NCBI GenBank assembly: GCA_023150875.1
Contig: JAKLKC010000060.1
Coordinates: 1 to 37,545 of the forward strand
Reading direction: 5' to 3'
Source: Myxococcota bacterium
GTDB taxonomy: Bacteria; Myxococcota_A; UBA796; UBA9615; JAKLKC01
Length of the DNA: 37,545 bases
How positions within the stretch are numbered: position 1 is the stretch's first letter; each line of letters opens with the position of its first letter. Below, one piece after another: positions 7,590 to 21,861 of this stretch. The translations under genes and the position numbers were made by a program. Under the pieces are notes generated by a model. It was not told the DNA's origin and searched no databases. It saw nothing but the letters and a program-made list of their open reading frames with translations.

Positions 7590-8465
7590 ATGGTCCGCAC
7601 GCTCTCCCTCACCGGCACCCTCACCCTGTCCCTCTGCCTCGGCCTGGCCCTGCCGGTGGGGGCGTCCGCCGCGGGGGCGGCGCCCGCGACCCACGGGGCG
7701 AAGTCCGATTCCAAGGACGAGGGCAAGAAGGCCGAGAAGACCGAGGACAAGAAGGACGACAAGAAGGACGAGCCCGAGGCCGCGCCGGAGGCCGCCGGAG
7801 GCGGTGACGAGGGATCGTCCGAGGAGGGCGAGGAGGCCCCCGACGACATCGGCTCCGAAGAGGCCGGCGGCTCCATGCCCGGGCGCGTGGGGGGCGGCGG
7901 GTCCTCGGACATCGTCGGCGGCACGGATCTGCCGCCCACCCTCGGCGAGCCCAACGTGGCCGGGACCCCCCGGGTGAAGATCACCCTGCGGGACGGCACG
8001 GTGCACGAGGGCAAGCTCACCCACGTCTTCAAGGGATCGGACAAGTGGAACGCCGATCCCCAGGCCGACCCGAAGTTCACCATCAACGTGGACGTGAACG
8101 AGCTCCAGCTCGAGTGGCAGAACGTGAAGACGGTGACCGGCCGCGACGCCGACCCCTCCAGCGACATCGACTGCTGGTCGAACCAGGACGCGGTCCCGCT
8201 GGAGTACGAGTGCACCCTCGCCCAGCCGACCTTCGTCAAGATGAAGAAGACCCACCAGTACCAGGGCGACTACAAGATGGTCGACCGGGAGCCCTTCACC
8301 TTCGTGCTCGACGGCAACGCCGAGAAGAGGGCGATGCTCTACCTCTACAAGATCCCCATGAAGGTCGCGGACGACGGCACGCCGGAGTCCGAGGCGCTGG
8401 CCCGCCTCCAGGTGGCGCTGAAGGCCGTCAACCTGAAGGGGATCCGGACCATCGCCTTCGAGTGA
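7590..8465 (+). CDS. Secreted protein of unknown function with charged linker
   Basis: A 291-residue protein I do not recognise. ATG at 7590 follows GGAGG with five-base spacing, and this start is at once followed by a signal peptide (MVRTLSLTGTLTLSLCLGLALPVGASAAG). Residues of about 35-75 are a Lys/Asp/Glu-rich, probably disordered linker, then a Gly/Ser stretch, then a folded C-terminal part of about 170 residues rich in beta-prone segments (PRVKITLRDGTVHEGKL, FTINVDVNELQLEW). Two cysteines (DIDCW, YECTL) 15 residues apart could form a disulfide. No membrane segment follows the signal, so a periplasmic or secreted location is likely. It has its own promoter and is followed by the small-RNA region on the opposite strand. 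Confidence 0.8.
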   Translation: MVRTLSLTGTLTLSLCLGLALPVGASAAGAAPATHGAKSDSKDEGKKAEKTEDKKDDKKDEPEAAPEAAGGGDEGSSEEGEEAPDDIGSEEAGGSMPGRVGGGGSSDIVGGTDLPPTLGEPNVAGTPRVKITLRDGTVHEGKLTHVFKGSDKWNADPQADPKFTINVDVNELQLEWQNVKTVTGRDADPSSDIDCWSNQDAVPLEYECTLAQPTFVKMKKTHQYQGDYKMVDREPFTFVLDGNAEKRAMLYLYKIPMKVADDGTPESEALARLQVALKAVNLKGIRTIAFE

Positions 8466-8594: not shown

Positions 8595-8632
8595 AAAAAA
8601 AAGAGCCGGCACCGTTCATCGGTGCCGGCTCT
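8595..8632 (-). terminator. Intrinsic terminator, minus strand
   Basis: A perfect 13-bp stem (8602-8614 with 8620-8632) and a 5-base loop are followed, reading leftward, by a run of eight U (plus-strand A at 8595-8602). On the plus strand no U run follows, so it does not serve the upstream plus-strand gene. Its core GCCGGCACC is shared with the hairpin at 8768-8796. Confidence 0.85.
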
Positions 8633-8637
8633 CAAGG

Positions 8638-8709
8638 GTCCCGGTCCACGGGCGGATGAGGGGGAGGGGGGGCCGCCATCACCATGGGTATGGCGTGTGG
8701 ACCGGGAAC
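8638..8709 (-). repeat. Structured direct repeat, unit B (promoter-distal)
   Basis: This 72-bp copy matches 8803-8873 except for one extra base and one substitution. Its ends form a perfect 10-bp inverted repeat. The duplication period is about 165 bp and also includes the following hairpin, so hairpin plus unit were duplicated as a block. Confidence 0.9.
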
Positions 8710-8767
8710 GCGCGTCCTTCAGCCGTCCTCTGGGCCCTGACGGGGGCCGGCGGGGCGGCGGATATGC

Positions 8768-8796
8768 GGCCGGCACCCCTTGTCAGGGTGCCGGCC
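8768..8796 (-). other. Internal hairpin between the two repeat units
   Basis: An 11-bp perfect stem (8768-8778 with 8786-8796) and a 7-base loop. The core GCCGGCACC is the same as in the terminator at 8602-8632, but no U run follows, so it looks like a terminator that lost its U tract, or a processing or stability hairpin. Confidence 0.7.
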
Positions 8797-8802
8797 AGAA
8801 AC

Positions 8803-8873
8803 GTCCCGGTCCACGGGCGGATGAGGGGGAGGGGGGGCCGCCATCACCAGGGTGTGGCGTGTGGACCGGGAAC
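8803..8873 (-). repeat. Structured direct repeat, unit A (promoter-proximal)
   Basis: This 71-bp copy begins about 26 nt after the predicted transcription start. Outer stem, bulged inner hairpin and C-rich strand are as in unit B. The inner hairpin uses CAC/GTG where unit B uses TACC/GGTG, so pairing is kept although the sequence differs. Confidence 0.9.
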
Positions 8874-8909
8874 AGTCGAGAGTCTCATCAGCGAACGTCC
8901 CTCCCTTAG

Positions 8910-8925
8910 AGCAACGGCCATGCCA
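8910..8925 (-). promoter_or_regulatory. Sigma-54 promoter of the small RNA
   Basis: Read on the minus strand, 8925-8910 is TGGCATGGCCGTTGCT, an essentially full match to the RpoN consensus TGGCAYR-N4-TTGCW, with exact GG-N10-GC spacing. The predicted start is near 8899. Sigma-54 promoters need an enhancer-binding ATPase, so the RNA should be condition-dependent. Confidence 0.75.
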
Positions 8926-9068
8926 GCGGACGGGGACGCGCGGTTCACTGCGTGTAAATGCTTGGATCTGCTTGGTTAATTGCCTCGGGCTCCCATCCGG
9001 GACCCCGCCCGGGGGGCCCTCCTCGCCGAGGTTCGGGGGGCCGGCGTGGGCTCGGCGCGGCCCGAGTG

Positions 9069-9106
9069 TTTCAAAGTGGGATGGTCGCGGACCTTTCAAC
9101 TTGAAA
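9069..9106. promoter_or_regulatory. Candidate enhancer sites upstream of the sigma-54 promoter
   Basis: TTTCAA at 9069-9074 and the perfect palindrome TTTCAACTTGAAA at 9094-9106 share a half-site. They lie about 170 and 195-207 bases upstream of the predicted small-RNA start, a usual distance for enhancer-binding proteins. They also lie just after the stop of the VWA gene. Function is inferred from position and symmetry only. Confidence 0.35.
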
Positions 9107-9136: not shown

Positions 9137-11800
9137 TCAGGTGGTGAGGCGGCGGTAGATCCGGGGGAGCTTCTCGGGGAGGGACTCGACCCGGTCGATC
9201 ACCGCGTAGCGGACGTCGCCGTACATGGAGGCGAGGTAGTCCTCCCCCCGGCGGTCGACGGTGATGCAGAAGGGGTGGACCCGGCGGGCCATGGCCTCCC
9301 GCAGGGCCATGCGGGTGTCCTCCTGGGCGTAGCGTTCGTTGTAGTGGTCGCAGCCGCAGTCCAGGGGACGGCCGTCGGAGAGGAGCACCAGCAGGCGCAC
9401 CCGGGCCTCCTCCCGGGCCAGGAGGTGGGTGGCGTGGCGGATGGCCGCTCCGTCGCGGTTCTCCCGCTGGTGGCCCATCCCGCCGATCCGCGCCCGCACG
9501 TCGGGGTTGTAGGGCTCCCCGAAGGACTTGTAGACCTCGAAGGTGACGTGGGCCCGTCCCCGGCCCGAGAAGCCGTAGATCGCGTACCGGTCACCGAGGG
9601 CTTCCAGGGCCTCGCAGAGCAGGATCAGGCTCTGCTTCTGGACCTCGATGACGGTGCGGCCCCCCCGGCCCACGCTCTCCTTGGTCGACGCCGAGAGGTC
9701 GACGAGGAAGGCGACGGCGACGTCCCGCTCGGGCCGGAGGCGGCGCAGGTAGAAGCGCCCGTCGGGGGAGTGGCCCGCGCGGCTCTCGACGACGCCCGCC
9801 ACCAGGGCGTCCAGGTCGAGCTCGTCCCCCTCGAGCCAGCCGCGGCTCTGGCCTCGCTGCTGGGCCCGGATCATCTGGAACTGCCTCCGCAGCCGCGACA
9901 CCAAGGGGCGGTGCTCCTTCAGGGTCTCCAGCGCGAACTCCGGGGAGCGGCCCTCGGCGCGGCGCTCCCGCACCGTGGCCCAGGTGGGGCGGTAGTCGCC
10001 GATCCCCCGGTCCCACTCCCAGTAGCGATGCACCCGGGCGGACTCGGGCTCGATGGCCTGGGGGCTGCCCGCGGCGTCGGACGGGCCGGCTCCCTCCCGG
10101 GGGGGCGGCTCCGCGGCGCCGCCGCTCCTCCGGCCGTCGCGGAACTGCTCCAGCAGGGCGCGCTCGACGCCGGTGTCGGCGTTCTCGGGGTCGGAGCGCA
10201 GGGCCCGCAGGACCTCCGAGAGGGGCACCTCGACGCCACGGTCGGCGAGGGATCGCTGGATCCCCAGCGCCCTGCCCCGTTCGGCGGCTTCCACGACCCG
10301 CCCGAGGTCCAGGGCGATCATCCCCTGGTGGGGCAGCGGCGCGGCCCCCGGCGCGGCGGTCTCCGGTGCCGCTCCGGCCGGGCGGGGCCGCCCCGGTCCC
10401 GGAGCCCCCTTCCCCCCTCCCCTCTCCCCGCCGGGATCCCCCTCCTTCGGGAGCCACATCGCCGCGCGGGACGCCGCGGGGTGCCGGGCCTCGGCCGGGA
10501 GGCGCTCCAGCAGGCGGTAGGCGTGGGCCGCGGCGGTGCCCGCGTCCTCCACCCTCGCCCCCGGCCTCCGCAGCGTGACGGCGGCCTGGTAGACCACCCG
10601 CGACGCCGCGGGCACCTCGGCCGCGGGGAGGCCCGCGTCGTCGAACCACACCAGGCGGGCGAGGACCTCCAGCGCCCGCTCCCGGGGGCACATCCGGCGG
10701 GGATCGGGGCGGCGGGGACGCTCGGCCTCCAGCAGGGAGTCCATCTCGCGGGAGAGCCCCGGGTAGGCGGAGCGGACCAGGTGGTCCACCCGGGCGTCCT
10801 CCAGCACCATGAAGACCCGGGCGATGAGATCGGGATCGGGGAAGCTCCTCAGGAAGGCGCGGAGGCCGTCGGCGGGCACGGCGGGGTCCCAGGAGCCCGG
10901 GCGGGGCGCCTCCACACCGTCGGGCAGGCGGAGGCGGCGGGGATCCAGCCCGAAGGTCCCGAACTCGATGTGCCCCGCCTCGTGGGCGGTGGCCAGCTTG
11001 TAGAGGCGGAAGTTCGCCTCGTCGTCGGGGAAGCGCATCAGCCGGGGCGCGAGGTAGATGTGGGCGCCGTCGGTGAGGGAGAGGGTCCAGGGATCCGGCA
11101 GGACTTCCCCGGGCAGGGTGTCCATGGAGCGGACGCGCACCCCCGAGCCGCAGTGGGCCTCGGCGTAGAGCTGCAGCGTGCGGGCGACCCGCTCCAGCGG
11201 CAGGCCCGCCCGCAGCACCTCCCAAAGCGCCCTCCCCTCCTGGGACTCCCGCAGCAGGAAGGACCGGACCTTCACGTGCCCCATCGGCAGGAGCCCCATG
11301 CCCTGCTCGACGAAGCCCCGTAGGGCGCCGGGGGAGAGCTCGTCCAGCAGCTCGGGCAGGGCCTCGGCGAAGGGCAGCGCCACCTCGGGGCAGGCCGCGG
11401 CCACACCGCCCAGGACGCCCACGAGGCGGATCCGCGCCTCGGGATCCGGCACCCCGAGCAGTATCCCCGGCAGGCGCTCCGCCAGGAGGCGAGCCGAGAC
11501 GGGGTCCTGGCGGGCGAGACGGGCCAGCATGTCCCCGAGCCGCGGGAGCATGGCCGGGGGGCCCCGCCGGGCCAGGGGACCGAGGTGGGGGGCCAGGGCG
11601 GAGGCGGTCACCCAGTCGGCGTCGGCGACCGCCCGCACGGCCTCCCGGGCCGCGCGGAACTGCTCGTCGGGCAGCTCCCCCCGGAGCTGGGCGACGGAGG
11701 CCGACGCCCGGGCCAGGGCGCGGGCCTGATCGTAGGGGTGGGCGTGGAACTCCCCCTGGCCGTCGAAGACCAGCCCCTCCAGCCCTTGGGGCCGAAGCAT
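9137..11800 (-). CDS. CbbO/NorD-like VWA-domain protein
   Basis: An 887-residue cytoplasmic protein. Its C-terminal VWA domain has a metal-ion-dependent adhesion site, FLVDLSAST (Asp701-Ser705), and later LLVLLSDGRPLD. The middle carries TAHEAGHIEFGTFG (HExxH-type at 273-277), then an Ala/Pro/Gly-rich linker (about 440-560). This arrangement matches NorD/CbbO-type proteins, the adaptor partners of MoxR-family AAA+ ATPases that remodel or activate enzymes such as Rubisco or nitric oxide reductase. A CbbQ/NorQ-type ATPase lies at 20980-21861 on the same strand rather than next door. No Rubisco or nitric oxide reductase gene is in the window, so the client is unknown. ATG at 11800 follows AGGGGG at six bases. 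The small-RNA promoter lies downstream. Confidence 0.82.
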   Translation of the reverse strand: MLRPQGLEGLVFDGQGEFHAHPYDQARALARASASVAQLRGELPDEQFRAAREAVRAVADADWVTASALAPHLGPLARRGPPAMLPRLGDMLARLARQDPVSARLLAERLPGILLGVPDPEARIRLVGVLGGVAAACPEVALPFAEALPELLDELSPGALRGFVEQGMGLLPMGHVKVRSFLLRESQEGRALWEVLRAGLPLERVARTLQLYAEAHCGSGVRVRSMDTLPGEVLPDPWTLSLTDGAHIYLAPRLMRFPDDEANFRLYKLATAHEAGHIEFGTFGLDPRRLRLPDGVEAPRPGSWDPAVPADGLRAFLRSFPDPDLIARVFMVLEDARVDHLVRSAYPGLSREMDSLLEAERPRRPDPRRMCPRERALEVLARLVWFDDAGLPAAEVPAASRVVYQAAVTLRRPGARVEDAGTAAAHAYRLLERLPAEARHPAASRAAMWLPKEGDPGGERGGGKGAPGPGRPRPAGAAPETAAPGAAPLPHQGMIALDLGRVVEAAERGRALGIQRSLADRGVEVPLSEVLRALRSDPENADTGVERALLEQFRDGRRSGGAAEPPPREGAGPSDAAGSPQAIEPESARVHRYWEWDRGIGDYRPTWATVRERRAEGRSPEFALETLKEHRPLVSRLRRQFQMIRAQQRGQSRGWLEGDELDLDALVAGVVESRAGHSPDGRFYLRRLRPERDVAVAFLVDLSASTKESVGRGGRTVIEVQKQSLILLCEALEALGDRYAIYGFSGRGRAHVTFEVYKSFGEPYNPDVRARIGGMGHQRENRDGAAIRHATHLLAREEARVRLLVLLSDGRPLDCGCDHYNERYAQEDTRMALREAMARRVHPFCITVDRRGEDYLASMYGDVRYAVIDRVESLPEKLPRIYRRLTT

Positions 11801-20979: not shown

Positions 20980-21861
20980 CTAGCCGAAGAAGTCGTGCAC
21001 CACCTCGTTCATGGAGCGGTGGAGCTCGGGGTCGTCGGTCAAGGGCAGGACCAGGGCCGAGAGGCAGGCGTCCCGGGCGGGGAGGCCGCGGCTCATCAGC
21101 TTGGCGGCGTAGATCAGCAGCCGTGTGGACACCCCCTCGTCCAGGCCATGGTTCCGCAAGTTGCGGATCTTGTGGCCGATCCGCACCAGCTTGCGGGAGG
21201 TGGGGGCGTCGACTCCCCCCTCGTGGGCCACGATCTCCGCCTCCATCGTCTCGGCGGGGTACTCGAACTCCAGGGTGGCGAAGCGCTGGCGCGTCGACTG
21301 CTTGAGGTCCTTGACCACGCTCTGGTAGCCCGGGTTGTAGCTGATCACCAGCATGAACTCCGGGGGAGCGTGGACCAGCGCGCCCTTCTTCTCGATGGGC
21401 AGGATCCGGCGGTCGTCGGTCAGGGGGTGGATCACCACCACCGTGTCCTTGCGCGCCTCCACCACCTCGTCCAGGTAGCAGATCGCCCCCTCCCGCACCG
21501 CCGTGGTCAGGGGTCCGTCGATCCACACCGTCTCGTCGTCCCGCAGCAGGTACCGGCCCACCAGGTCCGACGCGGTGAGGTCCTCGTGGCAGGCGACGGT
21601 GACCAGGGGCCGGGACAGGCGCCAGGCCATGTACTCCACGAAGCGGGTCTTGCCGCAGCCCGTCGGCCCCTTGAGCATCACCGGCAGGCGCTCCCGCCAG
21701 GCCAGCTCGAAGAGCTGCACCTCCGTCGCGTGGGCGCGGTAGTAGGGCTCGGACCGCGGGCGGTACACGGGGGTGCCCTTGCCGTCGCTCCCGGTGTCGT
21801 CCACGGCCTCACCCCCTCCCGGTCGCTTGCGGCCCGCGGGCCTCCTGGGCGGAGTGCTCAT
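20980..21861 (-). CDS. CbbQ/NorQ-type MoxR AAA+ ATPase
   Basis: A 293-residue AAA+ ATPase. The Walker A loop GPTGCGKT is at 65-72, Walker B AICYLDEV at about 126-133, sensor 1 ISYNPGYQ at about 173-180, and the arginine-rich [11 protein letters not shown] at 189-199 is in the position of the arginine finger. The form [16 protein letters not shown] and NPGYQS.KDLK.STRQRF is typical of CbbQ/NirQ/NorQ proteins, motors that pair with a VWA adaptor (CbbO/NorD). The likely partner is at 9137-11800. ATG at 21861 overlaps the stop of the upstream HAD gene as ATGA, so the two are one operon. The N-terminal 35 residues are a disordered basic/Gly stretch. Confidence 0.9.

Follow-up and report, generated by a model that had tools for sequence, protein, structure and literature searches.

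A predicted sigma-54-dependent, order-specific family of structured RNAs with repeated C-rich loops in Myxococcota

The window, by which we mean the whole 37.5-kb stretch of DNA analysed here, carries on its minus strand, between positions 8925 and 8595, a compact succession of elements: a sigma-54 promoter, a predicted transcription start, a first structured unit, a GC hairpin, a second unit and an intrinsic terminator (Table 1). Upstream, the nearest gene is on the minus strand; its stop lies at 9137, and its product matches a CobT-like VWA protein marginally. On the other side, a plus-strand gene of unknown family runs towards the element and ends at 8465. Because of this placement the element appears to be a free-standing intergenic transcript. 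There is no gene downstream of the array on the same strand. About 9 kb from the VWA-like gene (9137-11728, minus strand) lies a gene for a CbbQ/MoxR-type AAA ATPase (20980-21861, minus strand), and the two proteins are possibly the halves of a MoxR-VWA pair. The G+C content of the units is approximately 75%. The plus strand opposite both C-rich loops (8656-8672 and 8821-8837) reads GGATGAGGGGGAGGGGGGG, a strand that might adopt G-quadruplex-like structures in the DNA.

Table 1. Features of the array and of its upstream region
Feature	Position	Strand	Basis
Sigma-54 (-24/-12) promoter TGGCATGGCCGTTGCT	8910..8925	-	exact TGGCAN6TTGCT match (GG-N10-GC)
Transcription start, predicted	near 8899	-	from sigma-54 promoter position
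Unit 1, three-way junction with 11-bp outer stem	8804..8871	-	fold z -3.3; compensatory changes in relatives
C-rich loop (seed) of unit 1, CCCCCCCUCCCCCUCAU	8821..8837	-	identical in the genome's three copies; unpaired in predicted folds
Terminator-like hairpin without U-run, 3' of unit 1	8768..8796	-	stem sequence resembles third-copy terminator stem
Unit 2, three-way junction with 11-bp outer stem	8639..8707	-	fold z -3.9
C-rich loop (seed) of unit 2, same as unit 1 seed	8656..8672	-	repeat comparison and folding
Intrinsic terminator, 13-bp perfect stem and U8	8595..8632	-	sequence
Dyad TTTCAAGTTGAAA, 180 bp upstream of promoter; candidate site of an enhancer-binding protein	9094..9106	-	sister-array comparison
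Second half-site TGAAAC, 148 bp upstream of promoter	9068..9073	-	counterparts in G004, G002, G003

The two units are duplicates: one repeated block spans 50 nt (98%) and another 24 nt (96%). Folded alone, each adopts a perfect outer stem that encloses two elements, a small hairpin and the 5-bp stem of the 17-nt loop, giving a three-way junction with a predicted energy of about -34 kcal/mol, and for neither unit was any shuffled sequence equally stable. For the full transcript, an alternative fold in which the units pair arm to arm lies approximately 6 kcal/mol below the local folding and is the global minimum; the C-rich loops are single-stranded in both predicted solutions. A first-pass annotation of this locus had described two duplicated units exposing C-rich tracts, followed by a 13-bp intrinsic terminator with eight U, and these elements were all recovered; the closing stem that it gave to each unit is perfect, as it stated, but is 11 rather than 10 bp long. 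Absent from that description were the hairpin without a U-run behind unit 1, the 5-bp loop stem and second small hairpin of each unit, the upstream dyads, the third copy, the khpA linkage and the wider family that are reported below.

The sigma-54 promoter, first proposed on the basis of a GG-N10-GC motif, matches TGGCAN6TTGCT exactly, a pattern that occurs once in the window and in none of 100 shuffles, and RpoN is encoded in the genome. It recurs at homologous arrays in five sister genomes (TGGCACACCGCGTGCA, TGGCACGACCGGTGCA, TGGCACACATTGTGCA, TGGCACGGATGGTGCT and TGGCACGGCTCGTGCG), with GG-N10-GC in all five. As in the window, TTTCA/TGAAA dyads or half-sites are found about 110-180 bp upstream of the promoter in each of these sister arrays. 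Counted from the T of TGG, they lie at -180 (TTTCAAGTTGAAA) and -148 (TGAAAC) in the window, at -173 (TTTCATAATGAAA) and -149 (TGAAAC) in G004, at -178 and -142 (both dyads) in G002, at -180 and -165 (dyads) and -144 (half-site) in G003, at -111 (dyad) and -137 (TGAAACGTTTCA) in G006, and at -168 (TGAAACACGTTTCA) in G001. A single TTCAN3TGAA is found in the 37.5-kb window, and 255 kb of khpA loci from other orders also contain just one. An enhancer-binding protein probably uses the TTTCA-N3-TGAAA dyad.

The genome of the window (6.92 Mb in 180 contigs) contains one further copy, on contig C114 (locus L002, approximately 1482 to 1550), with a core of 36 nt identical to the window units. The outer stem of this third copy (AUUCCUUGCCCG/CGGGCAAGGAAU) has a different sequence with the pairing kept: four of its 11 pairs are changed on both sides, one is changed on one side, and none is broken. 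The copy possesses its own terminator with a U-run. No sigma-54-like site was detected there by pattern search, and in place of that motif a sigma-70-like TTGACT-17-TATCAT was read by eye (L002:1430-1465); the two loci of this genome may be under different control.

A covariance model built from the units and searched in related genomes had been recommended in the first-pass annotation. Such a model, constructed from the three copies of the window genome (R1), gave only weak matches outside that genome, of which two, in G004 and G006 of the same order, are multi-unit arrays (loops CCCUCCCCCUCA and CCUCCUCCCCCUCA). Of the six other genomes in the order, five (G001, G002, G003, G004 and G006) carry homologous arrays, the most diverged being that of G002; the sixth, G005, has a completeness of 79% and gave no match to khpA. 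The sister arrays comprise two or three C-rich units with the shared loop CCYCCYCCYCUCA, and in local folds of all five the C-rich seeds are approximately 75-100% unpaired. Since unit 3 is nearer to a simple hairpin in G001, G004 and G006, modules of more than one kind occur together in the arrays. A refined model (R2) recovered G003, a genome found by synteny and left out of the building of the model, with an E-value of 3.7e-4 in its genome and, at E-values up to 0.001, matched only genomes of the same order among 379 genomes of the phylum, although the E-values of both models are rough. No convincing R2 match was obtained outside the order in these 379 genomes; weak matches of the two models at L058, L059 and L062-L065 were judged from their alignments to be chance, as were those in G080, G292 and G360 from the number expected over 379 genomes. 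A BLASTN search with the whole element against 57 relatives produced no match outside the window genome, because only the short loops are conserved. A strict core pattern (TGANGG..), run over the class, the phylum and about 85,000 genomes (257 billion bases), returned a single, unrelated match outside the window genome; this pattern was too strict, as the homologues retain only CCYCCYCCYCUCA. As judged by sequence comparison, the window array and its relatives form a conserved, order-specific family of structured RNAs. The predicted 5' ends in G002, G003 and G006 have in common GTCTTTGA, located just 3' of the sigma-54 promoter (L078, L081 and L083), a possible conserved 5' element that was not seen in the window copy.

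The structure itself was derived from folding the copies of the window genome alone, and seven units from four genomes were then aligned to the model. In this alignment, which was fitted to the structure and is hence biased towards it, 94% of cells pair and double-sided changes occur in 11 of the 21 pairs (26 cells). The observed level of double compensatory changes was reached in none of 500 shuffles, and sliding the partners by 1-3 columns lowered pairing to 29-45%. The substitution pattern indicates that the structure is under selection. The first-pass annotation had named homologues with disrupted stems and promoter as evidence against its proposal; in the relatives the stems are compensated, and the promoter is kept in the five sister genomes. 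The structured RNA, the sigma-54 control and the repeated identical C-rich seeds that it postulated are supported by this comparison of genomes.

A gene for a khpA-type KH-domain protein lies divergently next to the arrays of all five sister genomes, G004 and G006 included, and next to the third copy, while the window copy itself does not adjoin khpA; the shared layout of promoter and upstream sites ties the window array to the khpA-linked ones. The block reads, in order, hut, array, khpA, ECF sigma factor and anti-sigma factor. The third copy lies upstream of an ECF sigma gene. By tblastn, the ECF and anti-sigma genes adjoin khpA in the five sister genomes and in the window genome, the anti-sigma gene (zf-HC2-type) being 3' of the khpA-linked ECF gene in six loci of the order (L002, L077, L078 and L081-L083). 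Genes for hutH and/or hutU are close to the khpA block in the window genome and in the sister genomes except G006, where the contig ends; in five genomes (L077 and L080-L083) these histidine-degradation genes lie on the flank of the array/khpA block. These hut neighbours might hint at a nitrogen-related signal. KhpA matches were found in 64 of the 71 genomes of the class, with a closer paralog in about 42 of these; the linked KhpA is a second paralog, and a more distant KhpA is also encoded in the window genome. The flanks of 40 further khpA loci were read, and among the 37 from other orders (L084-L120) none has an array with promoter and dyad, whereas 33 have an ECF gene within approximately 1.3 kb; this strongly conserved second khpA paralog adjoins an ECF sigma gene in all six loci of the order as well. 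Going by this distribution, the khpA-ECF linkage is older than the array.

The first-pass annotation had recognised no known RNA family at the locus, and likewise no Rfam match above threshold was found in the window or in the five loci tested. In the alphaproteobacterial sRNA NfeR1/alpha-r14, three hairpins whose stems differ all carry the same CCUCCUCCC loop motif, and the RNA silences ntrB at its ribosome-binding site (PMC10746234). The arrays resemble it in having several hairpins, up to three modules, that present an identical unpaired anti-Shine-Dalgarno loop (CCYCCYCCYCUCA here) on different stems, followed by an intrinsic terminator, but they differ in their sigma-54 promoter and enhancer-like sites, absent from the nfeR1 promoter, and in their three-way-junction units and khpA linkage; the corresponding model (RF02344, ar14) scores 18 bits in G006 (L061) against a gathering score of 58.8, and is not listed for the window or L002. 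CcaF1 is co-transcribed with CcsR1-4, tandem C-rich stress RNAs of the CIN1 locus, and a genetic link between tandem C-rich RNAs and a small RNA-binding protein is common to both systems (PMC10253847). In that system, however, the protein is of the DUF1127 type and the promoter is an RpoH promoter, whereas here a KH-domain protein is encoded divergently and the promoter is of the sigma-54 type; the CcsR/cuckoo model (RF02791) reaches 15.3 bits in the window, in antisense, and 13.2 bits in L002, with a gathering score of 65.3. The likeness of the low-complexity seed to those of alpha-r14 and CcsR may represent convergence. Qrr, GlmY/GlmZ and CrcZ are sigma-54-dependent sRNAs that constitute the output of enhancer-binding-protein circuits, and CrcZ also repeats a short protein-binding motif. 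An sRNA driven by an enhancer-binding protein is the predicted point of similarity with the arrays, but Rfam scans gave no match to these families.

The explanation that we favour, with a probability of roughly 60%, is a trans-acting sRNA that is induced through sigma-54 and an enhancer and whose loops block ribosome-binding sites. Starting from the conserved structured RNA, the conserved promoter, the upstream sites and the khpA synteny, we infer that an enhancer-binding protein acting on the sigma-54 promoter would give rise to an sRNA of approximately 300 nt, which would display two 17-nt C-rich anti-Shine-Dalgarno seeds on stable three-way junctions. When the activator signal is present, the seeds would most likely block the translation of several mRNAs by pairing with their G-rich ribosome-binding sites, with the units as redundant seed carriers and the linked KhpA as a plausible partner for stability or annealing. 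It is by analogy with NfeR1/alpha-r14 that a role of the seeds as anti-Shine-Dalgarno elements is considered most likely. Perfect 10-nt seed complements ahead of an ATG number 22, compared to 7 for a reversed control, with most of the sites inside longer reading frames; strong complementarity of the seeds to the starts of the neighbouring khpA and ECF genes was not found. These target results count against the favoured explanation, as does the missing sigma-54 motif of the khpA-linked third copy.

CrcZ and RsmZ are RNAs that titrate their proteins. By comparison, the repeated C-rich loops could act as a decoy for a single-stranded C-rich RNA binder, most obviously the linked KhpA paralog, an option that we regard as unlikely. 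Identical loops repeated on variable stems are what such a decoy would show, with CrcZ as a comparable case (PMC4063720), and the divergent khpA linkage, conserved across the order and involving a second paralog beside the more distant KhpA of the genome, points the same way; however, the other orders of the class keep khpA, mostly together with its ECF neighbour, without any array, and the loops match Shine-Dalgarno complements exactly. We tentatively raise the idea of a self-contained post-transcriptional module, in which a khpA paralog dedicated to this role and an anti-Shine-Dalgarno RNA with several seeds, induced through sigma-54, co-evolved, KhpA being either a specific chaperone or a titrated target of the C-rich seeds. 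If this is true, the khpA/array module would be a chaperone-sRNA pair apart from Hfq and ProQ, parallel to CcaF1-CcsR.

That the array is a divergent member of the myxobacterial Pxr family (RF01812) is improbable, even though this model provides the best, if weak, Rfam match in the window, where one unit scores 27.0 bits in an end-to-end match and the other 17.7 bits, and a near-best one for the third copy (28.3 bits). A divergent member of that family would be expected to carry a Pxr-like SL1 with a C7 loop, a sigma-54 promoter and tandem copies; a predicted sigma-54 promoter with an upstream enhancer region, a C7 loop, a terminator and, in Cystobacter, tandem paralogues are indeed Pxr features (PMC5568312, PMC5684412), and the sigma-54 promoter, a C7 loop and tandem copies are shared by the window array. 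The scores nevertheless remain far under the gathering score of 80, and the units fold as three-way junctions rather than in the SL1-SL3 architecture with the C7 loop on a long SL1, the Pxr-like hairpin contributing only about -4 to -8 kcal/mol, compared to -34 for the junction. In addition, the homologues retain the junction and lose the Pxr core, and a pattern made to fit the Pxr core as well matches no other genome of the phylum. Neither of the two-component genes pxrR and pxrK is immediately upstream of the window array, where the VWA-like gene is found, and khpA takes this place in the relatives; the lineage pattern also differs. Further Rfam Pxr matches near 25 bits, in the same genome and its relatives, were dismissed as chance, one of them being a tRNA locus and control genomes giving such scores too. 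By the tests made, the RNA resembles Pxr, NfeR1 and CcsR in part of its predicted working and is a member of none of them, while a compensated structure, a sigma-54 promoter and TTTCA/TGAAA sites, as would be required of a new family, are all present at the window array.

Since none of the three seeds in G001 lies in a frame that opens with ATG or GTG, it is very unlikely that the C-rich tract encodes a poly-proline leader peptide before an attenuating terminator, as the short PPPPHPP frame in all three copies of the window genome and the location of the third copy upstream of an ECF sigma gene could suggest; moreover, the other arrays vary in their starts and flanking residues, the core shows no third-position differences among three copies whose stems have diverged, and no same-strand gene follows the window array. 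Functionless inverted repeats and C-runs, which a G+C content of approximately 75% would make common, are hardly a credible source of compensatory changes, synteny, promoter and upstream sites in six genomes, or of a strict core with one match in 257 billion bases outside the window genome.

The arrays appear to represent a new, previously uncatalogued RNA family in one bacterial order, conserved in its promoter, its upstream sites, its structure and its gene neighbourhood. With another sigma factor in control and another kind of RNA-binding protein as neighbour, they would repeat a design seen in the multi-loop anti-Shine-Dalgarno RNAs of alphaproteobacteria, and this suggests that the combination of repeated C-rich loops with a linked small RNA-binding protein is a solution that recurs. 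The family also makes it possible to test concretely whether KhpA proteins of bacteria act for particular sRNAs.
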